64,000 nucleotides of DNA, from contig DAHUZP010000022.1 of assembly GCA_027306505.1 (NCBI GenBank), positions 1 through 64,000 on the forward strand. The letters run 5' to 3'. The stretch is from Thermoplasmata archaeon. Lineage in GTDB: Archaea; Thermoplasmatota; Thermoplasmata; Lutacidiplasmatales; UBA184. Below, piece by piece: positions 35,816 to 63,572 of the stretch. The first letter of the stretch is position 1; every line of letters begins with the position of its first letter. A program made the position numbers and the translations under genes. Under the pieces are notes generated by a model that worked only from the letters and a program-made list of their open reading frames with translations, had not been told where the DNA came from and did no database searches.

Positions 35816-36519
35816 CGTCCCCTCTTGGTAGGGACGGCGGGGGGCGCGCCCTTGCCGATGCCGATCCGGACCCGGTCCTCGTCGTGGAGACCGAGCACCT
35901 TCCGAAGCTCCACGGGCGCGATGAACTCGGCGACGTCCGTGTAGTGCGTCCGGTCCGGGACGATGAGGTGGCAGGTCGTGCCGTTGAGGAGCGAGGGATA
36001 GCACGTCGCGCCCCCGAAGGTGCGGCCCTGGTCCTGGAAGCCCTCGATCCGGACGCCCTGGATCGCTCCCACGTTCTCCAGACGGGAGGCTTCCGCCGGG
36101 GCGAGGCGCACGTTGAGCGTCCCGGGGAACGGCTCGTAGCCCAGGCTCCTCCGGAACTGGGAGACGTACCCGGGGATCGAAAGGTAGTACTTGCCCTCCC
36201 CGAGGCCGGAGACGACCGTGCCCTCGAGGTCGAAGGGCTGGGCCCCCTCCACGATGGTCCGAAGCTCATGGAGCTCCTTCCGAAGCACCTGGGTGCCGGA
36301 AGCGGTCAGCTTGAGCCCCTGCTTCCGCCCGCCCAGGACGCGCTCGAGGTAGCCCTTCTCCGTCAGGGCGATGAGGTACTGGCTCGCGGCCTGCTGGGAG
36401 ACCCCCAGGACCTCGCCCAACTCCCGGGAGGAGAGGAAGACCGGGGCTTCCCGAGCCCCCCGGGCCGCGAGGAGCTTCAGCACCTCGAACGATTCACGGG
36501 GAAGCCGAGCTACCGCCAC
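35812..36519 (-). CDS. ribK: CTP-dependent riboflavin kinase with HTH domain
   Basis: Archaeal riboflavin kinase that uses CTP to make FMN. Residues ~8-85 are a winged helix (SSRELGEVLGVSQQAASQYL). The kinase follows: VVSGLGEGKYYLS, YVSQFRRSLGYEPFPGTLNVRL and VPDRTHYTDVAEFIAP, all family-specific. The GTG at 36519 gives 235 residues and overlaps the LSm stop by ten bases. The HTH-kinase fusion is common in archaea and may let the enzyme regulate its own operon, but this is inference. Confidence 0.93.
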   Translation of the reverse strand: MAVARLPRESFEVLKLLAARGAREAPVFLSSRELGEVLGVSQQAASQYLIALTEKGYLERVLGGRKQGLKLTASGTQVLRKELHELRTIVEGAQPFDLEGTVVSGLGEGKYYLSIPGYVSQFRRSLGYEPFPGTLNVRLAPAEASRLENVGAIQGVRIEGFQDQGRTFGGATCYPSLLNGTTCHLIVPDRTHYTDVAEFIAPVELRKVLGLHDEDRVRIGIGKGAPPAVPTKRGR

Positions 36520-36776
36520 GGGGACCCGACCCTTTCGTCGGGACGGGGAGGAGGCAACGGGTTCGGTGCCTGCACGGCGATCACCTGGCTCCCGCGTACC
36601 ACCGCCTTCCCGAGCTTTCGTGCCCTCGAGGGGGTCTCTTCCGAGGCCTCCTCCAAAGAGAGGTTGATGAACTCGTCGTACCCCTCCAGGCGTCCCTTGA
36701 GGGTCCTCGAGTCCTTGAGGACGATGACGACCGTCTGGCCCAGGCAGCGGGTCAGGAAGCTCTTCGCGTTCTCCAT
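36510..36776 (-). CDS. Sm-like (LSm) RNA-binding protein
   Basis: An 88-residue archaeal LSm protein that forms a ring binding U-rich RNA. Sm1 is visible as VVIVLKDSRTLKGRLEGYDEFINL and Sm2 as VVRGSQVIAV. The C-terminal ~18 residues are a Pro/Arg-rich extension. It is the first gene of the operon with RibK, RaSEA and NadE. A TATA box at 36803-36808 places transcription start at about the ATG, so the mRNA is probably leaderless. Confidence 0.94.
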   Translation of the reverse strand: MENAKSFLTRCLGQTVVIVLKDSRTLKGRLEGYDEFINLSLEEASEETPSRARKLGKAVVRGSQVIAVQAPNPLPPPRPDERVGSPWR

Positions 36777-36979: not shown

Positions 36980-39900
36980 TTGACCCCCACGGTCCGAGGT
37001 GCGCTCAAGGAGTGCATGGACCAGCGCGGCGACGCGCTCTTCGACGACCCCCGGCTCCTGCGTGCGTTGCTCCGTGACCTCTGTCCCGGGGTCCGGGACC
37101 GAGAGGTCTTCGCGGTCCTGTGGGCGCTCGAGGACGGGATCCCCCAGGACCTGCGCGCCCTGCCTCAGGGACCTGGGGCGAGGTACGGGGTCGTGCGCTT
37201 CGTCCGCCGTCTGGCCGACCGTCGTGGCATCACGGAAGAGCTCTCTCGCATGGCGGTGGAGAGCTGGGTCTTCGCGCTGGGGCTCCCCTTCTCGGACACG
37301 GGCGAGGCGGGCAGCGCCCCCCCCCCGCCAGCTGCGACGGCGACCGGAGGGAGCCCTCCCGGAGGGCCGCCGTCCTGCCCGGCCCCGTGGTCGCCCGCAC
37401 CCCCTTCACCCTGGGCCGCTCCGCCTCCGCCCCCTACCGCCCCGGCCCGCGCGCCCCCGCCTCCGCCACCGCCATCGGCGAGCAGCGGAGGTGCCGGAGG
37501 CTCGGGCGCGGAGAGGGACTGGGTCGCCCTCGGGCTCTCCCTCCCTCCACAAGGAGAGGTCACCGCCCTCATCGACGGGATCCCGGTGCGCCTCACCCGC
37601 AGGGAGTGCTTCGAGAAGGCGGTGGCGCTCCGACCTCGGGACCCGAGGGGATGGTGGCACCTCGGGTCGATGCTCCCCCCCGGCACGGTGGCGACGGTTC
37701 CCCTCCACGGTCGGCCGGCCCCCCTGGGAGCGGTCGAGTGCCTGCAACAGACCCTTTCGCTCGATCCGGCGCAAGCCCAGGCCTGGGTCCAGTTGGGGGT
37801 CGCGCTCGACCCCTCCACTCAGCGGTCGGTGAGCGTCTCGATAAGTGGCCGACCCCAATCGGTCCGCCCGCGTGACTGTTTCGAACGCGCGGTGGTCGTC
37901 GACCCGAAGCTGTCGGTCGCCTGGCTGAACCTCGCTCGAACGCTCCAGGGTTCGGAGTCGATCCGCCTGCGGCTGGGGGGGGAGGAGACCACGGTGACCC
38001 CGGTCCTCGCCTACAGTCGGGCCGTTGAGCTCGACCCGAAGGACCCCGGTGCCTGGGCAGGTCTGGGGCGAGCTCTGGGGCCAGGGGGAAACACCACCTT
38101 GGCCCTCCCCGAAGGGCCCCTCCCCTTCTCGGCCCGGGGTTGCTTCGAGCTAGCGATCGGGCTGGGGGCGACGAAGGAGGCGGACATCTGGTTCGCTCTC
38201 GCGAGGTCGCTCGGGGCGAGCGAGGAGGTCAAGCTCGAGATGGAGGGGAAGGAGGTCCGCCTTCGGCGCTCCCAAGCGCGAGAACGCGGGCTCTCGCTCT
38301 CCCCGGCCCGGGCCGAGGAGTGGTTCGAGCTCGGACGCGACCTGGTCGGCTCTCAGACCGCGCAGGTGGTCATCGACGGACGTGCGCGGGTCGGCGGAAG
38401 GGTGGAGTGCTTCGAAAGGAGCCTCAGCCTGGAACCGGAGAACGCGGAAGCGTGGTACGAGCTTGGGACGAGCCTCGCGAAAGGGGGCCGGGCCTCCGTG
38501 CTGCTCCAGGGGAAATCGACCCCGCTCACCTCCCAACAGTGCCTGGAGCGGGCGATCCTCTTGGACCCATTGCACCCCCGGGCCTGGAGCGCGCTCGCGG
38601 ACACCCTCGGGCCGGTGGGGTACACGACGCTCCGACTGAACGGCGTGGAGACCCGGGTCACCTCCCTGGGCTGCCTCGAGCGGCACCTCGGGATGGACCC
38701 CAAGGACGGCACCGCATGGTGGCGTCTCTCCCAAGTGCTCGGTCCGGACCAGACCGCGAGCATCCCGGGCAGCGAGAAGGGTATGCGACCGACCACGATC
38801 ACCCGCCGGGGCTGCCTCGAGCGCACCGTCGCGCTCGAGCCGGGAGCGGCCAATGCTTGGCTCCGCCTCGGCGCAGAGATGGGCGCGCAAGAGCGGGTGG
38901 CGCTCGCGATCCAGGGCGGCACGACCTCGCTCTCCGCCCGCGAGTGCTTCGAACGCTCGATCACCCTCGATCCGAAGGTGGGCGAGGCCTGGACACGCCT
39001 GGGTAGCAGCCTCGGGCCGAGGGAGAGGACGGAGCTCAGCCTGGAAGGGAGCAAGCGGAGCTTCGATGCCCAGGCGTGCTTCCTGCGAGGTCTCGGGTTG
39101 GACCCGAGCGATGCCTCGGCGTGGGTGCTCCTCGCCCGCACGCTCGACAAGGGCGAGAGCGCGGCCCCTCCCTCGGGCGGGGGCTCCGAGCCCATCTCCC
39201 GACGTCAGTGCGCGGAGCGTGCGCTGGAGAGGGACCCCAAGCTCGGAGAGGCCTGGAGCGTGCTGGGGGAGGAGCTCTCCGGCTCCGAGCGACCGACGGT
39301 CCAGGCCGGAAGGGAGAGCGTCCCCGTGAACGCGACCGAAGCGTTCGTCCGGGCCGTCGTGCTCGACCCCTCGCTCGCCACGGCCTGGCGCGGGCTGGGA
39401 AGTTCGCTGCCCCGGGGTGGGTCCGTCGTGCTCCCGAAGGATGGGGGACCCCAGACGGTCACGAGGACACAAGCCTACCAGCGGTCCGTCGAGCTAGATC
39501 CCATGGACCCGCGGGCGTGGGAGGGTCTGGGAAGCTCCCTGGGGCCGAGCGAGACCGTCCCGCTGAGGGCCCCCGAGGTGCGGGGCCCGGTGAGCCGACA
39601 GCTCTGCTTCGAGCAGGCCGCCATGCTCGACCCGAAGAACGCGAAGGTCTGGAACAACCTGGGAGCGGTCCTACCGAAGGGCTCGATGGCCAGCGTAGCG
39701 ATCGAAGGGGCCCGCAGGACCTTCAACGAACAGGCCTGCTACGAACGTGCGATCGCTCTGGACCCCCGCTACGCCATCGCGTGGAACAATCTCGGCGCGT
39801 GCTTGGGTCCCAAGGGCCTTGCCCACGTCCCCAAGGCGGGAGGAGCGGCCTCCGAGACGGAGGAGGTCTCCGCCCGGTTCTGCTTCGAGCGGGCCCTCGC

Positions 39901-42763
39901 GCTCCACGGCCCCTACACCCAGGCGTGGAAGAACCTGGGCAGGGTCCTCGGTCCAGAGGAGAGGAGCACGGTCTCGGTGGGCGAGCACCAGGTGAGCGTG
40001 GACCCCACGGAGGCGTTCCGTCGCGCGCTTTCCCTGGACCCTCGTGACGCTGACGCGTGGGAGGGCCTTGCCGATGCTCTACCCCCGGGAGGGACGACCA
40101 ACGTCGACCTGGGCGAGGGCGACCAGGCCGTGTGCCGGGCGGACGCCTACGTCCGCGCACTGGAACTAGGGCCCCCCGCACGGGCCGAGGGTTGGATCGG
40201 GCTCGCGGCAGAGCTCGGACCGGAGGAGCGGCGCCTGCTCCATCTCCGGGGGAAGGAGGTGACCTTCACCCGGGCGGGCTGTGTGGACCGGTTCCTGACG
40301 CTGCGGGGGAGCGACGCAAGCGCGCTCCTCGAGGTCGGCAAGGTCCTGCGGGCCGGGGAGACGTTGCCGGTTCGCTTCGGGACCGACACTCGCACCATGG
40401 ACCGCCAGGACGTCTTCTTGCGGACCCTCTCGCTCGACGACCGCCTCGCGGAGGCCTGGCTGCGTCTCGCGCAGGAGCTCGCCCCCGGTCCCCGACCGGT
40501 CCCCGTAGGACCGTCCGGCAAGGAGGTTCCGATGACCCGGCAGGGCTGCTTCGAGCGTGCGCTCACCCTGGGCTTGGAGGGGCAGGACGAGGTGGAGGCC
40601 GAGGCCTGGGCCGGGCTCGCCGAGACCCTGCCCCCGGGGACCTCGATCACGCTGCGGCTGCAGGGAGGCTCAGCTCGTGTGGACCGGGCCAATGGCCTCG
40701 GACGCGCGGTGAGGCTGGACCCGTCGAACTCCTCGCGATGGTTCGAGCTCAGCAAGGCGCTCGCCGGGGGAGGTTCGGTCTCGGTCCCCTTGCAGGGCAA
40801 GGAAGAGGCGATCGATCGCCACGCCGCGCTCACCAGGACGCTCGAGCTCGATCCCTCGAACGCCGAGGCCTGGTTCCTCCTCTCGACCTGCCTCCCGAAG
40901 GGGAAGGAGACCCTGCTCGCGCTACCCGGTCGGCCACCCGCCATGTTCTCCGGGCAGGCTTGCCTCGAGCGCTGCCTCGCGGCGCAACCCCTTCACGACA
41001 AGGCCTGGCGGGCCCTCGCCAGCGCGCTGGGCCCCGAGGGGACGACGCAGGTCCCGCGTCAGGGAGCGCTCCTGCGCGTGAACGCGGTCGCTTGCCTGGA
41101 GCGCCACCTGGGGCTGACCCCTCGGGACGCCGGTGCGTGGTGGGACCTCTGGGGATTCCTTCCCGCGGAGGGTGTCGCCCAGCTCGTCCCCAGGTCCGGG
41201 CCGACCCAGCCCTACACCCGCCGAGGCTGCCTCATCCGGTGCCTCTCGCTGGACGCCTCTCGGGCTGCGGCGTGGGAAGCGCTCGGAGGCTCGCTCGCCC
41301 CGTCGGAGACGCTCAACCTGCCCGTGGAAGGGCGAACGCTCAGCGTCAACGCGCGGAAGTGCTTCGAGAGGGCCATCGAGCTCTCGCCCTCCCTCGTCGG
41401 GGCGTGGCGGGGCCTCGTCCGCACGCTCGGTCCCGGGGAGGTGTCGCAGGTCCGCCTGCCGGGGGGCGCAGGCCCGGTCAACCGTCGCATCGCGCTCGAG
41501 CACTTGCTCGCTCTCGATCCCGATGACGGCGCGAGCTGGGGCACGCTCGCGGACGTCCTCGCTCCGGGGGAGTCGACCTCCTTCGCCCTGGGCTCTGGGC
41601 GCGCCGAGACCTGGGACCGACGTTCCTGCCTGGAGCGCGCGCTCGCCCTCGATCCCTCCCAGGGGCGGGCGTGGACCGCCCTCGCCGCTCTCCTGCCGAA
41701 GGGAGGGGGAACGACGCTCCCGGCTCTTCCCCCGAACGGCGCATCCACGAAGGTGACCCGCCGCGAGTGCCTCACCCACGGGGTCGAGCTCGACCCGCGC
41801 TCCGGATCCGCGTGGCGCGCCCTGGCGGAGGACCTCTCCCCCGGGGAAACGGAGACCGTGGAGCTCGACGGCCGGCCCTCGAAGCTTGATCCCAGGGCGT
41901 GCCTGGAGCGGGCCGTCTCCTTCGCTCCCACCGATGGCGAGGCCTGGGCCGCGCTTGGGCTCCTCCTTGGTACGGAGGGATCGGCGGAGGTCCTCGTCCA
42001 TGGCCAGCCGCGCAGGTTCCCGGCCCGCGCTTGCCTGGAGAAGGCGCTCGAGCTCTCTCCCTACCAACCCCGAATCTGGTGGGCGCTCGCCCGACAGCTG
42101 CCGGCGGACGCGTCGACGACGCTCACCCTGCAGGGCGCCCCTCGCACGGTGCGCCGCTTAGAGGCCCTCACCTGGTGCGTGAACCTGGACCCGACTCTCG
42201 CCACCGCGTGGGCGGACCTGGGAGCCCTGCTTCCCCCCGGTGGCTCGGTCCAGGTGACCCTGAAGGGCCAAGCGAGGTCCATGGGCCCCCGGGACTGCCT
42301 GGAACAGAGCCTGACCCTCGACCCCAAGAATCCCCGGGCATGGAACAACCTGGGCGTCATGGTCTCCGATGGCGGCGCCGCGACCATCATGTTGGATGGT
42401 CGGCCGACGGAGGTCAACGAGGCCGCCTGCTACGAGCGCGCTCTCGCTCTGGACCCCGCCTACGCGGTGGCCTGGAACAACTTGGGAAAGGCGATCCCCG
42501 CCGGGGGCCGTGGTCGCGTGGAGGGGAGCGAAGGGCCGGTCCAGGTCGTGGCCAAGGACTGCTTCGCGAAAGCGGTGAGCCTGCAGCCCCGCTACGCCCA
42601 GGCCTGGAGGAACCTCGGAGAGTCCCTCGGTGACGACGAGAACATCTCCCTCGCGTTGGAGGGGGCCGGCCAGGCCTTCAGCTCCGAGGAGTGCTTCCAA
42701 AGAGCGCTGGAACTGGAGAACGGGCCCTCCGCTCCCCCACCCTCGAACGGCGCGAGCCAGTAG
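36980..42763 (+). CDS. giant protein of 39 hairpin-inserted TPR-like repeats
   Basis: A 1,927-residue soluble protein. Residues ~3-102 are a helical domain (LRALLRDLCPG, SRMAVESWVFALGL) also found at the C-terminus of the receptor at 61170. A Pro-rich linker follows (about 108-175). The rest is 39 tandem units of ~45 residues. Each has helix A (WxxLGxxL), a short strand pair with the pattern VxLxGxxxxV, then helix B (CFERALxLDP). This is a TPR with a ~10-residue beta-hairpin placed between its helices. Translation starts at TTG 36980, nine bases after GGAGG; the next Met is at 37016 and would truncate the first helix. It is probably a scaffold for the neighbouring signalling proteins; no enzyme motif is present. 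Confidence 0.85.
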   Translation: MTPTVRGALKECMDQRGDALFDDPRLLRALLRDLCPGVRDREVFAVLWALEDGIPQDLRALPQGPGARYGVVRFVRRLADRRGITEELSRMAVESWVFALGLPFSDTGEAGSAPPPPAATATGGSPPGGPPSCPAPWSPAPPSPWAAPPPPPTAPARAPPPPPPPSASSGGAGGSGAERDWVALGLSLPPQGEVTALIDGIPVRLTRRECFEKAVALRPRDPRGWWHLGSMLPPGTVATVPLHGRPAPLGAVECLQQTLSLDPAQAQAWVQLGVALDPSTQRSVSVSISGRPQSVRPRDCFERAVVVDPKLSVAWLNLARTLQGSESIRLRLGGEETTVTPVLAYSRAVELDPKDPGAWAGLGRALGPGGNTTLALPEGPLPFSARGCFELAIGLGATKEADIWFALARSLGASEEVKLEMEGKEVRLRRSQARERGLSLSPARAEEWFELGRDLVGSQTAQVVIDGRARVGGRVECFERSLSLEPENAEAWYELGTSLAKGGRASVLLQGKSTPLTSQQCLERAILLDPLHPRAWSALADTLGPVGYTTLRLNGVETRVTSLGCLERHLGMDPKDGTAWWRLSQVLGPDQTASIPGSEKGMRPTTITRRGCLERTVALEPGAANAWLRLGAEMGAQERVALAIQGGTTSLSARECFERSITLDPKVGEAWTRLGSSLGPRERTELSLEGSKRSFDAQACFLRGLGLDPSDASAWVLLARTLDKGESAAPPSGGGSEPISRRQCAERALERDPKLGEAWSVLGEELSGSERPTVQAGRESVPVNATEAFVRAVVLDPSLATAWRGLGSSLPRGGSVVLPKDGGPQTVTRTQAYQRSVELDPMDPRAWEGLGSSLGPSETVPLRAPEVRGPVSRQLCFEQAAMLDPKNAKVWNNLGAVLPKGSMASVAIEGARRTFNEQACYERAIALDPRYAIAWNNLGACLGPKGLAHVPKAGGAASETEEVSARFCFERALALHGPYTQAWKNLGRVLGPEERSTVSVGEHQVSVDPTEAFRRALSLDPRDADAWEGLADALPPGGTTNVDLGEGDQAVCRADAYVRALELGPPARAEGWIGLAAELGPEERRLLHLRGKEVTFTRAGCVDRFLTLRGSDASALLEVGKVLRAGETLPVRFGTDTRTMDRQDVFLRTLSLDDRLAEAWLRLAQELAPGPRPVPVGPSGKEVPMTRQGCFERALTLGLEGQDEVEAEAWAGLAETLPPGTSITLRLQGGSARVDRANGLGRAVRLDPSNSSRWFELSKALAGGGSVSVPLQGKEEAIDRHAALTRTLELDPSNAEAWFLLSTCLPKGKETLLALPGRPPAMFSGQACLERCLAAQPLHDKAWRALASALGPEGTTQVPRQGALLRVNAVACLERHLGLTPRDAGAWWDLWGFLPAEGVAQLVPRSGPTQPYTRRGCLIRCLSLDASRAAAWEALGGSLAPSETLNLPVEGRTLSVNARKCFERAIELSPSLVGAWRGLVRTLGPGEVSQVRLPGGAGPVNRRIALEHLLALDPDDGASWGTLADVLAPGESTSFALGSGRAETWDRRSCLERALALDPSQGRAWTALAALLPKGGGTTLPALPPNGASTKVTRRECLTHGVELDPRSGSAWRALAEDLSPGETETVELDGRPSKLDPRACLERAVSFAPTDGEAWAALGLLLGTEGSAEVLVHGQPRRFPARACLEKALELSPYQPRIWWALARQLPADASTTLTLQGAPRTVRRLEALTWCVNLDPTLATAWADLGALLPPGGSVQVTLKGQARSMGPRDCLEQSLTLDPKNPRAWNNLGVMVSDGGAATIMLDGRPTEVNEAACYERALALDPAYAVAWNNLGKAIPAGGRGRVEGSEGPVQVVAKDCFAKAVSLQPRYAQAWRNLGESLGDDENISLALEGAGQAFSSEECFQRALELENGPSAPPPSNGASQ

Positions 42764-46888: not shown

Positions 46889-46912
46889 CAACGGAGACAG
46901 GGGCGGGGCGGG

Positions 46913-46920
46913 TTTGTAAA
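46913..46920 (-). promoter_or_regulatory. TATA box of the propeller surface protein
   Basis: TTTACAAA on the minus strand is centred about 29 bases before the ATG at 46888, predicting a leaderless transcript and supporting that start over a longer frame to 47017. Confidence 0.45.
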
Positions 46921-47075
46921 TCTTCTCTCCTGGGCTCGGCCGGGTCCATGGCCGCTCTCGCTCGATCGAACACCGTCCGGGGGGGAACGACGGGGTCCCG
47001 GGCCGGCCCCCTCGCAAGGTTCATCGTTCGGACCCCTGCTCCAGCCTCCGCGTTTCCCGGAGGGACCGGACACCC

Positions 47076-47972
47076 ATGGAACTACGGCACGTGAGGATCG
47101 TCGGGAACCCCGGCTCCGGTCGCACGACGCTGCTCGCGCTCCTCTATGCCTATCTGGTCCAGCAGTCCACCGCCGAGGAAGGGTCGCGGGCCGCCTACCG
47201 GTTCTACGCGGACCCGGAGTCGGTCCGCAAGGGCGGTGACCTCTACCGCCGACTCTCCCAGCGGCGAGGGGGCGAGAGCCCCGTGCCCCCCTTAGGCTCG
47301 ATCACGCTGGAGATCGGACGGGGGACCCCGAGCCGTCTCTCCTTCCTTCGAAAGAAGGACCCTGACGGGGGAGACCCCGACAGGGTCCGAATCACCTTCT
47401 CGATCCCCCGCTCCGACGGGCAGGGGAGCAACCCCCAACCCACCCCGCCTTATCCTCCGCTGAACCCTTCGCTCCCCGTGGGCCAGCCGGTCAAGATGAT
47501 CGATCTCCTGGTCCATGCGATCCCCAGAGAGACGACCCCTGGCGGAGGCGTCCCAGGCAAGGTCTCCAACCCCGAGGGTCCAGGAAGCGCTCCCCCGGTC
47601 CCACCGGGGAGCCCCCCCTCCATCGCTCCCTTCGCCTTCGCCATGCCCGGCCCGGGGTCTCCCCTGGTGCTCACCCAATGGGACGTCGCGCTGCGCTCCG
47701 AACCCGATCTCAAGCTGGGGGCGGCGCCCCCGGCCTTGGAGGACGTCCAAGCGCGCCGAGAGCTCGCCGAGTCGATCCTGGACCTTCAGGCCGGGGGAGC
47801 GGGCAGGGTCCGCCTCCCCCCCGAGGTCCCGATCTACTTCTTCGGGCTCAGCCGGGGCGGCGGACCCTTCAGCGGGACGGCCGTCAAGGGGCATCACGTG
47901 GACTTCGCGACCTACGTGCCGCGGGAGGCCGATGCCTTGCTCGCGCGGCTCTTGGGTTTGAGGCGACCCTGA
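47076..47972 (+). CDS. P-loop pseudo-GTPase, paralogue of the island GTPase
   Basis: A 298-residue protein related to the GTPase at 50311. The first ~60 residues align: P-loop then LLALLYAYLVQ and YRFYADPESVRKGGDLYRRL, against LGLLYAAQT and YRFYGDPSTIRQMGSMYNAM. The P-loop reads GNPGSGRTT, so the invariant lysine is Arg16. The region matching the GTPase's DVAGED lacks the aspartate/glycine pattern, and no NKxD-like motif is evident. A Pro-rich insert lies at about 110-190. It is therefore probably a catalytically dead partner or regulator. It is convergent with the AAA+ gene, with 19 bases between them. Confidence 0.65.
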   Translation: MELRHVRIVGNPGSGRTTLLALLYAYLVQQSTAEEGSRAAYRFYADPESVRKGGDLYRRLSQRRGGESPVPPLGSITLEIGRGTPSRLSFLRKKDPDGGDPDRVRITFSIPRSDGQGSNPQPTPPYPPLNPSLPVGQPVKMIDLLVHAIPRETTPGGGVPGKVSNPEGPGSAPPVPPGSPPSIAPFAFAMPGPGSPLVLTQWDVALRSEPDLKLGAAPPALEDVQARRELAESILDLQAGGAGRVRLPPEVPIYFFGLSRGGGPFSGTAVKGHHVDFATYVPREADALLARLLGLRRP

Positions 47973-47991: not shown

Positions 47992-50295
47992 TCAGTCCTC
48001 TGGGGGGGTCGGCCCCGGGCCCTGCGGCCCGGCCCCGGCGAGCTCAACCTTCCCCCCCGCAGGGGCTGAAGCGGTTTCGAGGTAGCGCACGCCCTCGGGG
48101 GTGAGCGTGCGGCCCGTCGGCTGCACCGAGACCAGGCCCGCGCGCTGGAGCCCGGCGAGGATCTCCCGCTCCACGTACAGGCGATCGCTTTCCCCGAGGA
48201 GGTTCAGGAGCGTGTCCAGGCCGACCGGTCCGTCCTGGGCCCTGAGGAGGGAGAGCACCTTCCGGTGCACCGGGCCGAACCCGAGAGCGTCGAGCTCCTC
48301 GGAGCGCTCGAGGTCCGCGAGGTGGTCGGAGAGGCTCCGGTCCCGGTCCAGGCTCACCTTCTGCCGGGAGGCGAGGTCGTGCGCGAGCCGCAGGGCGACC
48401 CGCGGGATGAGCTGCCCCAGCGTCGCGAGACGGGCGCAGATCTCCTTCGGGAGCTGCGGGTAGCGACGGGCGACGATCTCCGCCACCTCCTCACGGGTGT
48501 AGTCGTTGAGATGGACCTCGGGGCTGAACCGGGAGCGAAGAGCGCGGTCCACCGCCTGCGGCCTCGTCGTGGCCGCGACGAACGTGGCGTAGGGGAACCG
48601 GTGGATCCCCGAGTCCAGCCGCACGAACCGGGTGTCCGGCTCGGTCAGGGTGAGCAGGGCTTCCTGGGTGCGGCGCGGGACCAGCTGGACCTCATCGATG
48701 AAGACGAGCACAGGGGGGTACTCGTACTCGGTCATCCCCTGGGACCTCGCCTCGAGGGTCCTGGGCGGGGTTCCCTGGGCGCGGAGCGTGGACCCTACCG
48801 CCTCGATGAGCGTGTCGCGGTCGGAGACCGACTGGCCGTCCAGGAGCACCAGCGGGACCCCCAGAGCCTTCGCCATGGTCTGGGCGAGCGTGGTCTTTCC
48901 TGTGCTCGGGTTCCCCGTGATGAGGTAGGACGAAGCGAGACGGGGCGGTGAGCTGGTCAGCGCCGAGACCAGGTCGATGGAGATGCGCTCGATGGCGCCG
49001 GAGTTCCCCACGAAACCGTGGAAGGCGTCCCCCACGCGCCGGTGCGCCTCCTCCAGCGAGGGAGGGGCGGGGGCAGCAGAAGGGACCTGGGCGGGGGGCG
49101 CGGGCTCGGGCGTCTTCGGGGCGGGCGGAGATCGGGGGGTCGGGCTCGCAGCGATGCCCTTGCCGTACGGGTCCGGGGAGGGGGCGTGGGGGGCGGGTGT
49201 GGTAGGGGCGGATCTTGGGGAGGAAGAGGGGGGGGCCGAAGAGGGCGAAGGGGAGCGTGGGGAAGGAGAGGGAGGAGGCGCAGGAGAGGGAGGAGGCGCA
49301 GGAGAGGGAGGAGGCGCAGGAGAGGAAGACGCGGAGGGCGGCTCGAGGTCGGAGGGATCTCCGCCACCTTCCGGCGGGCCCGGCCCGGTCGTCCTGGAGC
49401 TCGTCGGGGAGGGCCGCTTGGGCGGCGCGCCCACGATGCGAGGGGTGGGCTTATAGGCGGTATCGATCGCGGCGTAGAAGGCGGAGAGCTTCGGGTTCCG
49501 CGGGGCGTCCACCTTCTCGACGTTCGCCTCCACCAGGGCCCACCTCTGGTCCGCCCGGATGCCGCGGGGGGAGACGACCACCTGGAACGCGTCGAGCTGG
49601 CTCACCGGAGGAACGTCGCTCATCGACACGGGGACGGGGAGCTTTCCGCCGATGCAGAGGACCTCCAGCAGCTGGTAGAGCACCTCCACCCTCACCGCGT
49701 CCTCGGTCCCGGGCAGGTAGAGCAACGTCCTCCCATCGCGCACCGTCGCCCAGCGCGACGCGACGTTCTCCACGGCCGCCTTCGACAGGAGCTTACGCAG
49801 TCCAGCCCCGAGCATCGGCAGTTGCGCGGGGTCCTCCTGCAGGGGTACCTTGAGCGGAGCGATCGTCCCCTCCACACCGGGCTGCTCCCGGTCGAAACGA
49901 CGGACCGCCTCATCGATCGAGGAGAGGAGGAGCCGCCGGGAGCGGAGCAGCTCCATCGGCGCGATGACCGAGTGATTGACGTAGGTGTCGCGCCCGGCCT
50001 CGTCGGGAAGTCCCGGCTTGAGGACGGAGAGCAGGAGCTCGTCGCTGTCCGCGACCGGATGGGCCATCCGGATGTCGGTCAGCTTTCGGTCGACGCTGTC
50101 CGAGACGATCCCCCGGAGCGGAGTGTAGTGCCCCCTCAGTTTCGCCTCGTACAGGGTGAGGTTCAGTCCCTCTGCGACCGCCATGACCCGGTAGCCGACG
50201 GTCCTGGGACGCCCGTAGATCCAGTGGTCGAGGAGGATCGCCTCCCCCTCGTCCCCCGATCCCTCCGGGACCGGCTCGCCCTCAGGACCGGCCAT
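47992..50295 (-). CDS. AAA+ ATPase with GAP1-like N-domain and RuvB-like C-terminal wing
   Basis: A 767-residue protein. Residues ~15-282 resemble the N-domain of GTPase-associated proteins (GAP1-N type), with YGRPRTVGYRVMAVAEGL and GRDTYVNHSVI. A Pro/Ser-rich linker follows (285-415). The AAA+ core has Walker A GNPSTGKTT (461-469), Walker B LVFIDEVQLV (Asp534 and Glu535), sensor 1 in FVAATTRP, and an arginine in ALRSRF. A winged helix (about 670-745) matches the RuvB C-terminus (RAGLVSVQPTGRTLTPEG). It lies 15 bases downstream of the GTPase in one operon, and the fusion suggests it acts on, or in response to, that GTPase. It is not a canonical Holliday-junction helicase. Confidence 0.78.
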   Translation of the reverse strand: MAGPEGEPVPEGSGDEGEAILLDHWIYGRPRTVGYRVMAVAEGLNLTLYEAKLRGHYTPLRGIVSDSVDRKLTDIRMAHPVADSDELLLSVLKPGLPDEAGRDTYVNHSVIAPMELLRSRRLLLSSIDEAVRRFDREQPGVEGTIAPLKVPLQEDPAQLPMLGAGLRKLLSKAAVENVASRWATVRDGRTLLYLPGTEDAVRVEVLYQLLEVLCIGGKLPVPVSMSDVPPVSQLDAFQVVVSPRGIRADQRWALVEANVEKVDAPRNPKLSAFYAAIDTAYKPTPRIVGAPPKRPSPTSSRTTGPGPPEGGGDPSDLEPPSASSSPAPPPSPAPPPSPAPPPSPSPRSPSPSSAPPSSSPRSAPTTPAPHAPSPDPYGKGIAASPTPRSPPAPKTPEPAPPAQVPSAAPAPPSLEEAHRRVGDAFHGFVGNSGAIERISIDLVSALTSSPPRLASSYLITGNPSTGKTTLAQTMAKALGVPLVLLDGQSVSDRDTLIEAVGSTLRAQGTPPRTLEARSQGMTEYEYPPVLVFIDEVQLVPRRTQEALLTLTEPDTRFVRLDSGIHRFPYATFVAATTRPQAVDRALRSRFSPEVHLNDYTREEVAEIVARRYPQLPKEICARLATLGQLIPRVALRLAHDLASRQKVSLDRDRSLSDHLADLERSEELDALGFGPVHRKVLSLLRAQDGPVGLDTLLNLLGESDRLYVEREILAGLQRAGLVSVQPTGRTLTPEGVRYLETASAPAGGKVELAGAGPQGPGPTPPED
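49271..49324 (-). repeat. three perfect 18-base tandem repeats
   Basis: Three identical copies of an 18-base unit encode SPAPPP units within the Pro-rich linker of the AAA+ protein. Copy number could change by slippage and alter linker length. Confidence 0.85.
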
Positions 50296-50310: not shown

Positions 50311-51306
50311 TCAGCGCGAGGGGACCTGGTTGCCTTCTTCCACGTCGTCCGGCGCCCGGTCCGCGAGCTCCCGGAAGTAGTCGATGAAGGCCCGGTACTC
50401 CTCGTAGGCGAACTTCACGTCCCCCTTGAGGTCGCGCTCGATGGCGGGCTTGCTCGACGTGTCCATCCCCGCCACCTGGGCCACCTGGACCCAGCTGAAG
50501 AAGAACTGCGACTTGTCGAAGTTCACGCCCATGAGCCGCCCGCCCTTGAGGAGGGCGAACATCTGCGGCAGGAACCGGGTCATCAGCGCCTGTCCGAACC
50601 TCTCACGCCCCGAGTGGTCCGACGGGGCCGGGGGGGACGGGGGCAGCCCGAGCTGGGTCAGGACGTCGGAGGGGATCTGGTCGAACTTCGACAGGACGAT
50701 CACCGGGTAGATGGTGGTCTGGGAGGTGCCCTTCTTTCCGCCGGTCGGTGCGGTCTTCTTCGCCATGTCGGCCTTGTGCTTCGCCAGCGAGGAGAGCAGG
50801 ACGGCCCCGTTCTTGTCGTAGTCAAGCATCCGGTCGAAGAGGCTGCCGGTGGTGGTGGTCGTGAACCGCGAGCAGTCGACGATGAACACGATGATGTGGG
50901 CCTTCAGGAGCTCCTGGATGACGCGGCGGTTCTCCGTCACGCCGGTCTCGACGAACTCCTCGACGTCCTCACCGGCGACGTCGTAGGCCGCGAAATCGAT
51001 GATGCTGAAGGGCTTGACCCAGTTCGCCTTGCGGATGTTCTCGGGGAGCATCTGGGAGAGGCCGCGTGGAAAACCGAACTTGAATCGGATCTCGCTCATC
51101 TCCTCCTTGAGGTTCGCGGGCGGGAACCGTCCGTTCCGCATCGCGTTATACATGCTGCCCATCTGACGGATCGTGGAGGGGTCCCCGTAGAACCGGTAGC
51201 TCTCCCCTCGAAGCTCGTTCGTGTAGCGGGTCTGGGCCGCGTACAACAAGCCGAGGAAGACCGTCTTTCCGGACGACGAATACCCGTAGATCGCGGCTGG
51301 GCACAT
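50311..51306 (-). CDS. small GTPase of the signalling island
   Basis: A 331-residue GTPase-fold protein. G1 is GYSSSGKT (8-15), G3 is DVAGED (109-114, with Ala and Glu where Ras-like proteins have xxGQ) and G4 is SKFD (206-209). YRFYGDPSTIRQMGSMY after G1 is shared with the pseudo-GTPase at 47076. Long helical inserts lie between G3 and G4 and at the C-terminus. Bacterial GTPase-centred conflict systems pair similar GTPases with GAP1-type proteins, and such a protein is the next gene. A TATA box at 51331-51338 gives a leaderless start. It probably acts as a nucleotide-dependent switch, with no membrane segment. Confidence 0.82.
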   Translation of the reverse strand: MCPAAIYGYSSSGKTVFLGLLYAAQTRYTNELRGESYRFYGDPSTIRQMGSMYNAMRNGRFPPANLKEEMSEIRFKFGFPRGLSQMLPENIRKANWVKPFSIIDFAAYDVAGEDVEEFVETGVTENRRVIQELLKAHIIVFIVDCSRFTTTTTGSLFDRMLDYDKNGAVLLSSLAKHKADMAKKTAPTGGKKGTSQTTIYPVIVLSKFDQIPSDVLTQLGLPPSPPAPSDHSGRERFGQALMTRFLPQMFALLKGGRLMGVNFDKSQFFFSWVQVAQVAGMDTSSKPAIERDLKGDVKFAYEEYRAFIDYFRELADRAPDDVEEGNQVPSR

Positions 51307-51434: not shown

Positions 51435-52823
51435 TCAGGCGGCGATGGCCCCTTCCACGGTGCCGAACCGTATCCTCCGTCCAAGGGTGATCGAGACGCT
51501 CCTCCCCGGCTCCACGGAGGCCTGAGAGCCATCCGGTGCGGTGGTCGACCAGGCACGGTTGCTGAGGTTCTTGATCCCCCACCGGGACGGGTCCTGGGGA
51601 TGCTGCACGATCGAGGCCACCGGTTGGGAGTAGTCGTAGAGGCGGGTGGGGTCGATGTGGTGGGGGAAGAGCTGCGTGTCAGCGTTCAGGATGACCCAGG
51701 TCTTGCCGAGCCGCAGGCGCGGAGGTCGTGAGACCGTGGCGGAACAGACCCAGCAAGGGTCCGTGGGGGGAAGTTCCCCGGCCCCCTCGGTCGGCGGGGT
51801 CCCCCAAAGTCGGGCCGAGCGGTCGACGAAGTTCTCGTGGCGGTTAGGGCAGTAGGTGATGTCGTCGCGCAGCTGGGACATCACCATCCTCCACTCGGTC
51901 TCGCGGACGCGACCGTTCTTGGGGTCCTTGAGCCCCACCGTGAAGGCCTTCGTGAACTTCTCCCGTAGGAACTCCGGGTAGATCTTCCAGAGGTCGAACG
52001 CGTTCGCCCCCGCCTCGCCCGTCGGGTCCTTCTCCCAGGGCAGCGCCTCGTTGACGGTGTTCGATTCGTCGAAGATGAAGACCGGCTCCTCGCCGCACAG
52101 CTTGATCCGGGCCTTGAGGTCCAGGCTGCGGATCTGGAGCAGGCGCTTCCCGTAGAGCGGGTGATGGACGTGGAAGAGGTAGAACAGGAGGACGCTCAGC
52201 GAGAAGAGGTCGGACTGCGTGTTGGGCAGGCTCTGGCCCCGGACGAGCTCAGGGGCCATGAAGTCCGGGGTGCCCATCACCCCTCCGATCCCTTCGGCGT
52301 CCACACCCACGTTGTCGTTGTCGCAGATCGCGATGTCGCCGGTCGTGGGATCGAGGAAGACGTTCCCCGCCGAGATGTCACGGTAGCAGAGACCGTGGGC
52401 GTGCAGTTGGAGGAAGCTGTGCGCGAGCTGGAGGCCCGCGGTCGCCCGCGCGCGGAAGGTGGGGTCGATCCGGCCCTTCAGCAGGTCGGTCATCCCTCGG
52501 AAGCGTTTCTGCCGCAGGGGCATGAGATACCCGAACGAAGGCGAGCCCGGCTGAGACACGAGGTCCGACGGCCAGAGGAAGCGCTCGCTGGGCGTCCCCT
52601 TCGAGATGAGGACCTCGAGGGAGCGACGTTGGGAGGGAGTGCACCAGTTCGGATAGTACCACTTGACCGCGACCTCTTCTCCGTCGAGGCTGGCCGAGTA
52701 GACCTCCCCCTGTCCGCCCGCCCCGATGAACTCCCGGACGACGCACGGGCTGCCGGAGGTCGAGCTGATGAGCCGGTCCCCCGAGCCGAGGGAGTTGAAG
52801 GCTGGACGGGGAGGAGGGCTCAC
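51435..52823 (-). CDS. Ser/Thr protein kinase of TerY-P type with FHA-like C-terminus
   Basis: A 462-residue kinase. The Gly loop is GAGGQGEVY (34-42) and the ATP lysine is Lys54 in VAVKWYY. The catalytic loop is YRDISAGN (147-154), with Tyr replacing His but Asp149 and Asn154 kept. The magnesium loop is CDNDNVG in place of DFG, and MAPELV (189-194) ends the activation segment. Residues ~325-375 contain four cysteine/histidine positions of a possible zinc ribbon (CPNRH...CWVC). The last ~70 residues (WGIKNLSNRAW, PGRSVSITLGRRIRFG) resemble an FHA domain. It starts with GTG directly abutting the PP2C stop codon. With PP2C and VWA it forms a TerY-P-like triad. Confidence 0.88.
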   Translation of the reverse strand: MSPPPRPAFNSLGSGDRLISSTSGSPCVVREFIGAGGQGEVYSASLDGEEVAVKWYYPNWCTPSQRRSLEVLISKGTPSERFLWPSDLVSQPGSPSFGYLMPLRQKRFRGMTDLLKGRIDPTFRARATAGLQLAHSFLQLHAHGLCYRDISAGNVFLDPTTGDIAICDNDNVGVDAEGIGGVMGTPDFMAPELVRGQSLPNTQSDLFSLSVLLFYLFHVHHPLYGKRLLQIRSLDLKARIKLCGEEPVFIFDESNTVNEALPWEKDPTGEAGANAFDLWKIYPEFLREKFTKAFTVGLKDPKNGRVRETEWRMVMSQLRDDITYCPNRHENFVDRSARLWGTPPTEGAGELPPTDPCWVCSATVSRPPRLRLGKTWVILNADTQLFPHHIDPTRLYDYSQPVASIVQHPQDPSRWGIKNLSNRAWSTTAPDGSQASVEPGRSVSITLGRRIRFGTVEGAIAA

Positions 52824-53795
52824 CTATCCTGCACCTCCCTTCGCGGCGACGTGGGCCCCGGCGGCCCTCTTGGACGCTCCTGCCGGACCGACCGAGGGGA
52901 CACGGAAGAGAAGCCCCAGGGTGATGTCGTCACCGCTACCGTCCCGGGAGGTCTGCTCCAGCATGCCCGGGAGGCTCTCCCCCACGTGACGGGCCCCCTC
53001 CCGACAGAGGCTCGCCAGGACGTCGCGCGCGAAGGCCTGGAAATCGGTCGCGTGGGGAAAGGACTTGGACAGCCCGTCGGTCGAGAGCCAAAGGAGCACG
53101 GGGTCCGCTCGGGAGCGGGCGTAGAACCGCAGCCGAAAGTCCTGCCAGGCACCCTCGCGCGAGAGCGAGAGCGTCTGGTCCCCCACCAGCCCCGCGTCGG
53201 GCGGGACCGGCTCCATCACCTCGCCACCTTCCGAGACCATCAGGATGTCGCCGTCCCCGATCTGGAGATGCAAGAGGAAGTCCGGGGCCACGGCCGAGAC
53301 CACCAGCGTGGTGCCGTAGGCGAGCCTTCGGTGCCCTTCAGAGACGGTCGATCCCGGGGACGCGGGGGTGCCAGCGCCCCCTTGGAGGGCCAGGGTCTCC
53401 TCGGGGGTCAGCGGCCTCAGGGCGAGCTCCTCGTCGACCTTCCTCTGCCACTCCCGCTCGATCTGCTTCGCCAGCATGTCCTCGGCGAGGCGCTTCACCA
53501 CGAGCAGGTTCTCGTGCGATGCGGTCTTCTGCAGGAAGCGCCAGAGGACCTCGGTCGCGGTCTCCACGGCAAAGACCGCCCCCTGCTGGCTGCGGGGGCT
53601 CCGGGCGTCGCCATGTCCGTCCGCCACGGACATCACCAGGGGGGTGGGGGTCTGCCCCTCTCCGGCCGGGAGGCGGGGGAGGAAGCGGAAGGCGTCCTGG
53701 TTCGGCCGGGCGTCACGCACGTGCTTCGCGCCCCGCACGCTCGCCGCCACGGGAGCCCAAGCGTCCACGGTGCCCTGGACCTCCACCGCCGCCAC
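52824..53795 (-). CDS. PP2C-family protein phosphatase
   Basis: A 323-residue metal-dependent Ser/Thr phosphatase that presumably opposes the adjacent kinase. Metal-site and fold motifs are present: NQDAF (32-36), VADGHGDAR (58-65), YGTTLVV, IGDGDI, LWLSTDGLS and SGDDITLGLLF. An insertion of ~60 residues (about 105-155) lies between the early motifs. The GTG start is 28 bases after the VWA stop. The protein is soluble. The kinase gene begins at the next base, so expression is tightly coupled. Confidence 0.9.
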   Translation of the reverse strand: MAAVEVQGTVDAWAPVAASVRGAKHVRDARPNQDAFRFLPRLPAGEGQTPTPLVMSVADGHGDARSPRSQQGAVFAVETATEVLWRFLQKTASHENLLVVKRLAEDMLAKQIEREWQRKVDEELALRPLTPEETLALQGGAGTPASPGSTVSEGHRRLAYGTTLVVSAVAPDFLLHLQIGDGDILMVSEGGEVMEPVPPDAGLVGDQTLSLSREGAWQDFRLRFYARSRADPVLLWLSTDGLSKSFPHATDFQAFARDVLASLCREGARHVGESLPGMLEQTSRDGSGDDITLGLLFRVPSVGPAGASKRAAGAHVAAKGGAG

Positions 53796-53823
53796 CGCCC
53801 CTCTTTCGGTGACCAGGTCCGGC

Positions 53824-54519
53824 CTACCAGACCGCCTCGGAGGACGGGCCGGAGGGTGAGACCGTGACGGGCGTGGGGAGCGGGACGGTGACCGAGGTCT
53901 CCTCTGAACGAAGTCGGCCGCGCGAGGGCTGCGAGACCGCCTTGAGGACCGCGGTCGAGGCCCAACGGATCGACCGAACGAGGGCCTCGGGGTTGTTCGC
54001 TTGCAGCGGCCGGATCGTCGGGTCGCCGATGAACTCCTGCAGGACCTCGAGGTCGACGTCCCGCCCGATCGCGATGCCGATCCTCACCGAGGACCGGCCC
54101 CAGGGCTCCTCGAGCAGCGCCTCGAGCCCACCCTTGTAGTCGTCGGTCGGTTGCCCGTCCGAGAGCAGCACCAGGACGGGGGGGAGCGCGCGTTCCTCCA
54201 TCGGGGGGATCGCGAGCTGCGAGGCGACCAGCCGGAGGGCCTTGCCGAGGTCGGTGAGCCCTCCCGCGCTCACGTCCTGCCAGGAGAAATCGTCGAGAGG
54301 GGTCGGCTTCTCCAGGTGCCAGCGAGCCCCGGAGGAGAAGGCGACCGCCCTCACCAGGACCCTCGCGTTCGGGTTGTCGTCGGCCACCTGGCGCATGAGC
54401 GGTATCGTGTCCCGGATGGAGTTGTTGACGGCCTGGATCTTCCCGTCGTCCCGCATAGAGCCGGAGGCGTCCACCAGCCAGATGAAGTGGAGCGGACGTG
54501 AGGCGACGGCCCGGGGCAT
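53824..54519 (-). CDS. TerY-like VWA protein
   Basis: A 231-residue VWA-domain protein of the TerY type. The MIDAS is intact: DASGSM (17-22), Thr in GGLTDLG and Asp in LSDGQPTDD. FIWLVDASGSM near the N-terminus and the VRIGIAIGRDVD segment fit TerY. A ~45-residue Ser/Thr/Pro tail follows and could be a phosphorylation target read by the FHA proteins. It heads the operon VWA, PP2C, kinase, the order expected for TerY-P triads linked in bacteria to tellurium and stress-response Ter systems. A TATA box at 54542-54550 gives a leaderless ATG. Confidence 0.88.
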   Translation of the reverse strand: MPRAVASRPLHFIWLVDASGSMRDDGKIQAVNNSIRDTIPLMRQVADDNPNARVLVRAVAFSSGARWHLEKPTPLDDFSWQDVSAGGLTDLGKALRLVASQLAIPPMEERALPPVLVLLSDGQPTDDYKGGLEALLEEPWGRSSVRIGIAIGRDVDLEVLQEFIGDPTIRPLQANNPEALVRSIRWASTAVLKAVSQPSRGRLRSEETSVTVPLPTPVTVSPSGPSSEAVW

Positions 54520-58220: not shown

Positions 58221-58242
58221 GGGGGCCCATCGGCTCCCTGGG

Positions 58243-58249
58243 AATTAAA
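58243..58249 (-). promoter_or_regulatory. TATA box of the cyclase gene
   Basis: TTTAATT on the minus strand is centred about 26 bases before the GTG start, so the transcript is probably leaderless with a GTG at its 5' end. Confidence 0.5.
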
Positions 58250-58300
58250 CCAGCGCTCGCCGCGGGGGCCCACGGGCGGGGGGGCCCCCGACCTCTTCCC

Positions 58301-58726: not shown

Positions 58727-58770
58727 GTTCCTGCACCGCTCTTGGGCAAGGGCTCCTCAGGGCTCCACCA

Positions 58771-58777
58771 TAAAAAA
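58771..58777 (-). promoter_or_regulatory. TATA box of the cyclic-nucleotide-binding gene
   Basis: ATTTTTTA on the minus strand is centred about 48 bases before the ATG, predicting a start near 58748. Confidence 0.45.
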
Positions 58778-58869
58778 TGCTCTGTGCGAGAGGGACGCGA
58801 GGACGCCCCCGGCCCGGGAGCGGTTCCCGGCGGCGGGGTCGGCCGGTCCAGGGCCGGGGGCGGCCCTCC

Positions 58870-59460: not shown

Positions 59461-59461
59461 G

Positions 59462-61009
<1,548 letters not shown>

Positions 61010-61053
61010 CGTTGGACCCCCCAGGGGTGCCCCTAGCCATCGACGGACGCCGC

Positions 61054-61060
61054 GATAATC
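61054..61060 (-). promoter_or_regulatory. TATA-like box of the SPFH-like operon
   Basis: GATTATC on the minus strand lies about 48 bases before the ATG, predicting a ~20-base leader. Confidence 0.35.
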
Positions 61061-61169
61061 CTTTGCTCGCTCCCGGGTCCTCCCTGCGGGAAGCCGACCC
61101 GACTTCGCACTCCCCCAGCTCGAGGTGGGGAAACTTCACCTCCACGAGGATTCATGAAGGAGTGGAGGC

Positions 61170-63533
61170 ATGGGTGGCCAGTCGTATAGGATGACCGTGT
61201 TCCGTAGGGCCACCATCCTTGGGCTCTGCGCCCTCACGCTCGGGGCCCTCTGTGGCTTGGCCATGGCTCCGACCGCCGCCGTCGGAACGGCGGCCGGCGC
61301 CGAGCCCGGCCACGCTTCGAGCGTGTCCTTCTCCCCCCGTGCTTCCCTGACGGGGACCGGGCCCCACCCTGCCTACACCATGCCCCATACGACCGGATCC
61401 CTGGGAGACTGGATCGTCGGAGCCTCCGCCGCCCAAACGACCTACTCCGGGTTCGATGGCATCCAAATGACGGCCAACCTGGTCGCGCTCTCCACCCCAC
61501 CGGTCAGTTCCGGCAACTGGGACATCGAGAACGTGTATGTCTGGGAGAACACCAGCGTAGGCGTCGCTTTCGACTTCGGCTACGCGGTTGGACAGACCGC
61601 GGCCGGGGCCTGGGGCCCCTACCCGTTCTACAGCTGGGGGACCTCCGGGGGAGGGGTCTCCTGCACACAGCCGCTTTCCTTGGGCAACAACCTGTTCGAG
61701 GTGCTCGAGCTGCCCGGGGGGACCTGGGACTTCACCGTCGATGGGAACCCCATCTCGGGCCCCTCCCTCTTGACCGGAGGGACGTGCACCGGTGCCACGC
61801 TCACCGGCTCTCTCAGCCTTCCAGGGTCCACGGCCGTGGAGGGGCCCACCTACCTTGAGACCAATCTCCAGGAGGAGGCCTCGAACCGTACCACGCTCTG
61901 GACCTTCCCGACCCTGACCCTGCCCCATGCGATGGACCTGCAGTTCATGGGAGCGTGGGCAACGGTGGGGTCCGCCATCGCGGGGTTCTACACCTCGACG
62001 GGGGCGATCCCCACCTTCGGGGTCAACGGTCGGGTGCAGAACACCTCGCTGCCCGATGACGAGCTCCTCTTCTCCTCGTCGGCCCTCTCTCCGCCGACCG
62101 GCTCCTCCCTGTGGAACGGGCTCGTCGCTACGATAGGGACCTTCTCCCCGACGGCGCAGTCCTCCGGGAGCTACAGCGTGTCCATCTCGGGAGGCACGGC
62201 GCCCTACCATTGCGTCTGGCGCTTCGGTGACGGGGGTATCGCCGCCGGGCAGACGGTCAACTACAGCTACAGCCAGGCCGGCACCTACACGCTGGTGGTC
62301 TTCGTCAACGACTCCTCCGGCGAGGCAGCGGTGGCGACGACCTCGGTCATCGTGCAGACCGGGGTCACGCCCTTGGACGCCGTGTTCTCCGCGTTTATCG
62401 GCCTGCTCTTCTGGGTGCTGATCATCGGGCTCATCGCCTATGCGGTCCACCGTTCCAGGAAGCGCAAGCGCGAGGCGAAGGCCGCGGCAGCCCAGGCCGC
62501 TTCGCGCCCGGCCCAGGTGTTCGTGCAGTACGTCTACATGCCGACCCCGGCCGCCAGCACCGCGCCCCCTGCTGCCGTCGCACCCGCCCTCCCTCCCTCG
62601 GCGGCCCCACCCGTGATCGCCGCGCCTTCCGGCGGGTCGTCCCCACCCATGCCCGCCCAAGGGGGCGTGGGAGGACCCTCTTCGGGACCCGCCACAACCC
62701 CGCGAAGCACCTCTGCTCCCTCCGATGCACGCCCGGCTTCCACCACGTCGACCGCGACGGGGAGCCGCTCGGTCGATTCCGAGGGGGAGCCCACGTCCCT
62801 CTCGGACACCTCGGGCCCCCTCTCGTTCTCCTCGGGCCGTTCCTGGCAGGCCCTCTCCATCTCTACCCCCTCCTCCGAGCCCGCTTCGGACTCGATCTCC
62901 CTCTCGCCGGCGATGGACGGACCGGCAACGGGAGCGGGGGCCTCGAAGGACCCGAACGCTGCCCGCCCCCTATCTTCCGACGAAGTCCCGCGCCCCTATC
63001 CGGAGCCCACGACCTCCACCGGGGGCGCTCTGGGGCCCTACCCCTCGTACGCTCCCATTGCCCCACCCCCCGCTCCATCCCCCGCTCCACCCCCCGCCCC
63101 TCCCCTCTCGCCTGCCCCGGTCGCCCCCCCCTCCCCGGCCCCCATCGCGGCTCCACCGCCAGCGCCCCTTGCCCCTCCGGCCCCTCCCCCCCTAGCTCCG
63201 CCGCCTCCCTCCACGCCGGACCCGGTGGGTGACCAGGTGCGGGCGGCGCTCCGGAGCATCTGGAAGGAGCGCGCCGAACAGATCTCGGGCAATCCCCGCA
63301 TGCTCCGGGCCATCCTGTCCGACGAGTGCCCCGGGTCGAAGCGCGAGATCAACCTCGTGGTGGCCGCGCTGGACGACGGCGCGGTCGATGAGCTGCGGTC
63401 AGCGATGCGTCCGGGCGCCCCTCCCCCTCCGCCCCTGACCGAGCAGCTGGTGCAGCGGCTCATGGACCACCGCGGGTTCACCTATCCTTTGGCGCGATGG
63501 GCCGTGGATTCCTGGGTCGCGGCGCTGCTCTAG
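61170..63533 (+). CDS. transmembrane receptor-like protein with effector-associated-type C-domain
   Basis: A 787-residue single-span protein. It has a signal peptide (about 10-43), a beta-rich exterior with NxS/T sites (45-320) and a PKD-like domain (about 325-397, WRFGDGGIAAGQTVNYSYSQ). The membrane helix (about 402-425) ends in RKRKREAK. A ~255-residue Pro/Ser-rich linker follows. The last ~100 residues (VRAALRSIW, MLRAILSDECPGSKREINLVV, LARWAVDSWVAALL) are the same helical domain that opens the TPR giant at 36980. It probably binds an external ligand and recruits partners inside. The ATG follows AAGGAG by a few bases. The gene is divergent from the SPFH-like operon. Confidence 0.82.
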   Translation: MGGQSYRMTVFRRATILGLCALTLGALCGLAMAPTAAVGTAAGAEPGHASSVSFSPRASLTGTGPHPAYTMPHTTGSLGDWIVGASAAQTTYSGFDGIQMTANLVALSTPPVSSGNWDIENVYVWENTSVGVAFDFGYAVGQTAAGAWGPYPFYSWGTSGGGVSCTQPLSLGNNLFEVLELPGGTWDFTVDGNPISGPSLLTGGTCTGATLTGSLSLPGSTAVEGPTYLETNLQEEASNRTTLWTFPTLTLPHAMDLQFMGAWATVGSAIAGFYTSTGAIPTFGVNGRVQNTSLPDDELLFSSSALSPPTGSSLWNGLVATIGTFSPTAQSSGSYSVSISGGTAPYHCVWRFGDGGIAAGQTVNYSYSQAGTYTLVVFVNDSSGEAAVATTSVIVQTGVTPLDAVFSAFIGLLFWVLIIGLIAYAVHRSRKRKREAKAAAAQAASRPAQVFVQYVYMPTPAASTAPPAAVAPALPPSAAPPVIAAPSGGSSPPMPAQGGVGGPSSGPATTPRSTSAPSDARPASTTSTATGSRSVDSEGEPTSLSDTSGPLSFSSGRSWQALSISTPSSEPASDSISLSPAMDGPATGAGASKDPNAARPLSSDEVPRPYPEPTTSTGGALGPYPSYAPIAPPPAPSPAPPPAPPLSPAPVAPPSPAPIAAPPPAPLAPPAPPPLAPPPPSTPDPVGDQVRAALRSIWKERAEQISGNPRMLRAILSDECPGSKREINLVVAALDDGAVDELRSAMRPGAPPPPPLTEQLVQRLMDHRGFTYPLARWAVDSWVAALL

Positions 63534-63572
63534 GGCTCCCTCCCCGGGCCCCACGAGCGGCGGTCCCTCACC

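Follow-up and report, generated by a model that had tools for sequence, protein, structure and literature searches.

Tandem hairpin-bearing TPR units joined to an uncatalogued adaptor domain in an uncultured Thermoplasmata archaeon

Results

Organization of the repeat gene and its protein

The window analysed here, a 64,000-nucleotide stretch of one contig from an uncultured archaeon of the class Thermoplasmata, carries a plus-strand gene with a TTG start at 36980..42763 that encodes a protein of 1,927 aa (205 kDa, pI 5.9). Its N-terminus is an all-helical, adaptor-like domain of ~102 aa (aa 1-102; 36980..37285, +), referred to here as the H-domain, which is recognized by an H-domain HMM of which the sequence is itself a member (E 3e-40) and which is predicted to form a six-helix bundle in a relative from the sister genome REEB18. 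A proline-rich linker, evident from the sequence at aa 103-179 (37286..37516, +), follows and is presumably flexible; the corresponding linker of the REEB18 relative has pLDDT < 50. Next come 39 tandem units of 44-50 aa each (aa 180-1920; 37517..42739, +), here called hairpin-TPR units, which were delimited by cutting the protein at the WxxL motif of helix A, with one false and one missed cut corrected. As no stretch is hydrophobic enough for a transmembrane (TM) helix, the protein is taken to be cytosolic. An Lsm gene of 88 aa (36510-36776, -) lies divergently adjacent.

The unit consensus opens with A-W-x2-L-G-x2-L-x-P-G-x, continues through the hairpin, and closes with C/A-[FLY]-E-R-A-L-x-L-D-P. 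The original prediction had described units of ~45 residues; the regularity of the repeat holds, and the modal length is 44 aa (28 of 39 units, the remainder being 45-50 aa). A profile of related 40-aa units, with rows from Thermoplasmata, Simkaniaceae and Margulisiibacteriota plus one hand-made consensus and with the window sequence excluded, identified 38 domains in the protein (E 9e-219). Because this profile finds 38 domains without any contribution from the window, the periodicity of the array is not a product of chance, and together with the WxxL splitting it bears out the 39 TPR-like repeats first counted in these 1,927 residues. The 44-aa and 40-aa forms differ by four residues, located inside the hairpin.

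Mean amino acid identity among units is ~31%, and Tandem Repeats Finder detected no array in the corresponding DNA; for both reasons the array must be old, and a recent tandem expansion is ruled out. Block duplication at lags of 18-20 units left weak hints of an old event only (lag-18 score of 40.2 versus a shuffled 95% value of 42.1; best run of four 32.5 versus 29.3).

A predicted β-hairpin in every modelled unit

An AlphaFold2 model of units 34-39 (41942..42739, +; pLDDT 92.9, pTM 0.87) contains helix A (~8-11 residues), a strand, a tight turn, a second strand and helix B (11 residues) in all six units. Structure prediction of consecutive units, proposed at the outset as the check on the inserted hairpin, thus returned a hairpin in each unit and not ordinary TPRs, and the same insertion was predicted in the 40-aa relatives. 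A separate model of a 652-aa REEB18 protein with 40-aa units comprises nine helix-hairpin-helix units with a six-helix domain at either end. Searches of the PDB by fold matched the model to TPR superhelices, including O-GlcNAc transferase (OGT), PilF and consensus TPRs, with the best VIA-align score for O-GlcNAc transferase (Z 17.0, rmsd 3.0, 200 residues aligned).

The folding alignment held 9 rows, mostly internal repeats taken from other stretches of the same array together with three relatives, and so few, largely self-derived rows could favour the view that these are ordinary 34-aa TPRs with disordered loop insertions whose hairpins are a prediction artefact. We regard this as highly improbable, since pLDDT exceeds 90 through most hairpins, the five models are similar in mean pLDDT, and a different protein with 40-aa units gives the same result. 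The sequences themselves speak against it as well: across 39 diverged copies the insertion keeps a fixed length, in-phase hydrophobic alternation and a turn glycine. Of the 28 units of 44 aa, 26 have hydrophobic residues at three or more of positions 15, 17, 19 and 26, compared with 4 for an out-of-phase set, and 23 keep the turn glycine. The sequences and the model therefore give good support to an array that forms a TPR superhelix, with a conserved amphipathic hairpin in place of the short turn between helices A and B. Entropy peaks at positions 3, 7 and 8 of helix A and at hairpin positions 16, 18, 20 and 22, and as these are the most variable positions, the surface of helix A and the polar face of the hairpin probably bind partners.

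Comparison with catalogued repeat families

Pfam models TPR_17 (E 4.7e-91) and TPR_11 (E 1e-70) match the protein, consistent with the sequence signature of TPR helices A and B, and the model and its PDB matches display the superhelical stacking of helix pairs typical of TPRs. A 34-residue unit with a short A-B turn is not what this array has; its units are 44-50 aa long and contain a two-stranded hairpin. All Pfam and NCBIfam matches were to ordinary TPR models, the best of which mostly span helix B and the following helix A, and the hairpin is covered by none of their models. Searching PDB sequences with the array returned ordinary TPRs only, and a Sel1 profile did not match the protein at E <= 1. 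Within our incomplete coverage of the literature on TPR diversity and loop insertion, we found units of 34 or 42 residues and insertions in the loops between repeats, and no hairpin unit of this kind. The original statement that no described family was known with this architecture therefore agrees with both the databases and the literature covered.

Distribution of the hairpin unit

All four genomes of the Thermoplasmata genus studied here contain hairpin units, against 0 of 396 other genomes sampled from the class. Besides the 39-unit protein, the same genome encodes a separate protein with 40-aa hairpin units on contig C56, and in the sister genomes hairpin-TPR genes number three in REEB18 (G003) and one each in G001 and G002. 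Surveys of 400 class-level and 389 phylum-level genomes turned up no further case outside the genus; the sole class-level match outside the genus (G138) proved to be an ordinary TPR protein.

A genome-wide pattern scan of 84,980 species recovered, beyond a sister genome, one Simkaniaceae MAG with 40-aa hairpin units (e.g., AWNNLGATLELGQEVEVNGKKYSKQECYLEALKLDP) and one Margulisiibacteriota MAG. In the scan for the DNA pattern, 5 of 9 matches were attributed to chance, near the expected number. A profile search across the phylum of the Simkaniaceae genome gave matches in 6 of 232 genomes at E 1e-10, and among those inspected, Chlamydiae genome G546 has clear hairpin units with Leu replacing Cys. 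Two Chlamydiae proteins (G400 contig C17 and G546 contig C19) carry diverged units with the consensus NLGTTL..GE.IQL.DGTKMTK..LYLKAI.LDP, and one of them has pentapeptide-like repeats upstream. The C-terminal part of the hairpin-TPR protein in the Margulisiibacteriota MAG (DT_59) looks F-box-like by eye, which is odd for a bacterium and possibly a binning error.

No homologue of the unit was found in phages, and a pattern scan of viral contigs yielded none. The only plasmid match inspected, from Cereibacter, was an ordinary TPR protein, and most other matches had alignment lengths of ordinary 34-aa TPRs. The search for taxonomic spread that had been proposed for the repeat unit thus shows that the unit is not exclusive to this protein, as it extends to the genus, to Chlamydiae and to one Margulisiibacteriota MAG. 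This spread is sparse and patchy, which suggests that the unit may have been dispersed by horizontal transfer.

A switch-like gene cluster between two H-domain genes

Downstream of the repeat gene, a run of minus-strand genes from 54519 to 47992 lies between two genes encoding H-domains. In order of transcription it encodes a vWA domain protein (53824..54519, -), a PP2C phosphatase (52824..53795, -), a protein kinase (51435..52823, -), a DO-GTPase2-like GTPase (50311..51306, -) and an AAA+ ATPase with a RuvB_C-like winged helix (47992..50295, -); the phosphatase, kinase and ATPase were assigned by domain scan, and the GTPase scored 26.7 bits against a Pfam cut-off of 27. A second, divergent GTPase related to the DO-GTPases follows on the opposite strand (47076..47972, +; 38% identity over 55 aa, E 1e-5). 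The first GTPase has two close paralogues elsewhere in the genome, the DO-GTPase-like genes at C77:88247-89233 and C46:32285-33274 (41-45% identical), each with a weaker match to a second GTPase nearby; since each of these adjoins such a match, the genome appears to contain about three GTPase pairs.

The kinase, PP2C and vWA genes are consecutive (51435-54519), and one theme of the DO-GTPase systems described by Kaur et al. 2020 (PMC7159879) ties together the same three; the window resembles this theme as a candidate member. GAP1, the constant partner of DO-GTPases in those systems, had no match among the subset of window open reading frames scanned, and PADLOC returned generic kinase and AAA matches only.

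Other genes of the region were noted in passing. The TPR gene is separated from the GTPase/AAA+ genes by a gene for an NHL-type β-propeller protein of 1,253 aa (43256-47017, -), which combines a TM segment with a zinc-ribbon-like CxxC pair at the C-terminus. The interval 55296-64000 encodes an adenylate/guanylate cyclase-DUF835 fusion, a probable cyclic-nucleotide-binding protein, a zinc-ribbon protein and a zinc-ribbon/FHA-like protein, and a DnaK-like gene follows these signalling genes at contig positions 64785-66698.

The H-domain recurs beside vWA and PP2C genes on a Methylomonas plasmid

The two H-domain copies found in the 2.96-Mb genome are both in the window and flank the vWA-PP2C-kinase-GTPase-AAA+ genes. 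The second belongs to a secreted/TM protein (61170..63533, +) with a PKD domain, a TM stretch and the H-domain at its C-terminal, cytosolic end (63234-63527, E 1e-16). Neither the N-terminal H-domain nor this second copy figured in the original prediction. The hairpin-TPR proteins of G001-G003 have an H-domain at both ends of the array. Neither Pfam nor NCBIfam matches the H-domain, and PDB sequences gave nothing convincing. Outside the genus it was found in 0 of 37 sampled genomes.

Among plasmid records the H-domain was present in one, the Methylomonas sp. AM2-LC plasmid CP157007. A vWA gene and a PP2C gene are followed there directly by five genes in which the H-domain is fused to Sel1 repeats, Tim44, a ClpX zinc finger, Clp_N and an unknown part, and the plasmid vWA is 61% identical to that of the window over 194 aa.

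Kaur et al. 2020 (PMC7159879) described small effector-associated domains (EADs) common to several proteins of DO-GTPase systems. The H-domain fits this description, being a small, non-enzymatic helical domain on varied proteins near a core system: the scaffold and the PKD/TM protein here, and five partners in Methylomonas. As to membership of a named EAD family, the comparison covered Pfam, where no family matched the two H-domains of the window or the H-domain regions of the Methylomonas proteins.

Discussion

A proposed scaffold and its alternatives

From gene context, we propose that the protein is a cytosolic scaffold whose ladder of 39 hairpins is coupled by the EAD-like H-domain to the vWA-PP2C-kinase-GTPase-AAA+ switch and to the PKD/TM protein, a reading to which we give an even chance. 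The 39 TPR-type helix pairs would stack into a long superhelix, and a rigid amphipathic hairpin at each A-B turn would form the ladder along one edge of the spiral. Variable surface positions of helix A and the polar faces of the hairpins would probably bind partner peptides or proteins. The proline-rich tether would lead to the N-terminal six-helix H-domain, which may couple the scaffold to the switch (vWA, PP2C, kinase, paired GTPases and AAA+) and also to the membrane protein bearing the same domain at its cytosolic end; H-domains could bind each other or the switch. The whole may act as a stress or conflict-response complex. Attachment to the switch is suggested by the recurrence of the H-domain in two distant organisms, and a single small domain distributed over many partners next to a core switch follows the EAD pattern of Kaur et al. 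2020 (PMC7159879).

Against such coupling, the TPR gene lies outside the operon, on the opposite strand, with the β-propeller gene intervening. The proposal is weakest where the sister genomes are concerned, which possess the scaffold but lack this vWA. Hairpin-TPR genes and H-domains are present in all three, a search for close relatives of the vWA found none in any of them, and no such switch module was seen among the called genes around their hairpin-TPR genes. As just one of 61 relatives has this vWA, the switch module looks to have been acquired later. The sister genomes would fit a cytosolic TPR scaffold or assembly platform of general use that has nothing to do with the vWA-PP2C-kinase genes, in which the H-domain merely dimerizes the scaffold and the operon is nearby by accident. 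We consider this a serious though less probable explanation: the single further H-domain detected in the genome lies on the opposite side of the operon, ~20 kb beyond the TPR gene, and the Methylomonas plasmid displays the association of H-domain with vWA and PP2C independently.

The array might instead bind RNA or another polymer lengthwise, as PPR or IFIT proteins do, rather than proteins. The Lsm gene adjoins the TPR gene divergently, the 44-aa hairpin-TPR gene of REEB18 is preceded by an Lsm-like C-terminal fragment in the same orientation, and some TPRs bind RNA (PMC11514114). The array is acidic (pI 5.9), however, its units have no net positive face (helix A 0, hairpin +0.3, helix B -0.5), and no PPR model matched, which together make binding of RNA or another polymer very unlikely.

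A bolder extension of the coupled scaffold would have the hairpins of consecutive units pair edge to edge with a rise of two strands per repeat, giving an alpha/beta superhelix with a continuous β-ribbon of ~78 strands on one edge. Such a protein would represent a class of solenoid separate from TPR, with a new death-domain-like adaptor tying it to an archaeal kinase-phosphatase-GTPase switch; we think this reading doubtful.

Relation to known systems

Few scaffolds in biology are as common as TPRs, and the hairpin-TPR unit is a rare new variation on them, joined to an uncatalogued adaptor domain. It shares with TPRs the W-x2-L-G of helix A, the A/C-F-x2-A-L-x-L-D-P of helix B and superhelical stacking, with Z scores of 13-17 to solved TPRs, and it differs in its length of 44 (or 40) aa, in the hairpin that takes the place of the A-B turn, and in the Cys or small residue that opens helix B. 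Sel1-like repeats, at 36-44 residues, are likewise TPR-related helix pairs, but they follow another consensus and fold as a helix-turn-helix that lacks strands (PMC11514114). Engineered long-loop TPRs resemble this array in having an insertion in every unit, but theirs are unstructured loops between repeats that weakened coupling (PMC6817815), whereas the hairpin-TPR insertion is structured and lies within the repeat. We found no natural array described with the same structured hairpin in every unit. An alpha-solenoid can thus apparently tolerate a structured insertion in 39 consecutive units, where engineered long loops weakened repeat coupling, and binder design would gain a new template in which hairpins stand in a regular row.

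The neighbourhood can be compared in the same way with the DO-GTPase systems (PMC7159879). As in those systems, kinase, PP2C and vWA genes stand together with GTPases, and a small helical domain resembling an EAD is carried by several different partners beside the switch module. The differences are an H-domain without a Pfam match, the presence of an AAA+ ATPase, the lack of a GAP1 match among the proteins scanned and the archaeal host. The H-domain is an uncatalogued adaptor that, in archaea and bacteria, may link such scaffolds to membrane proteins and to vWA/kinase/phosphatase switches.
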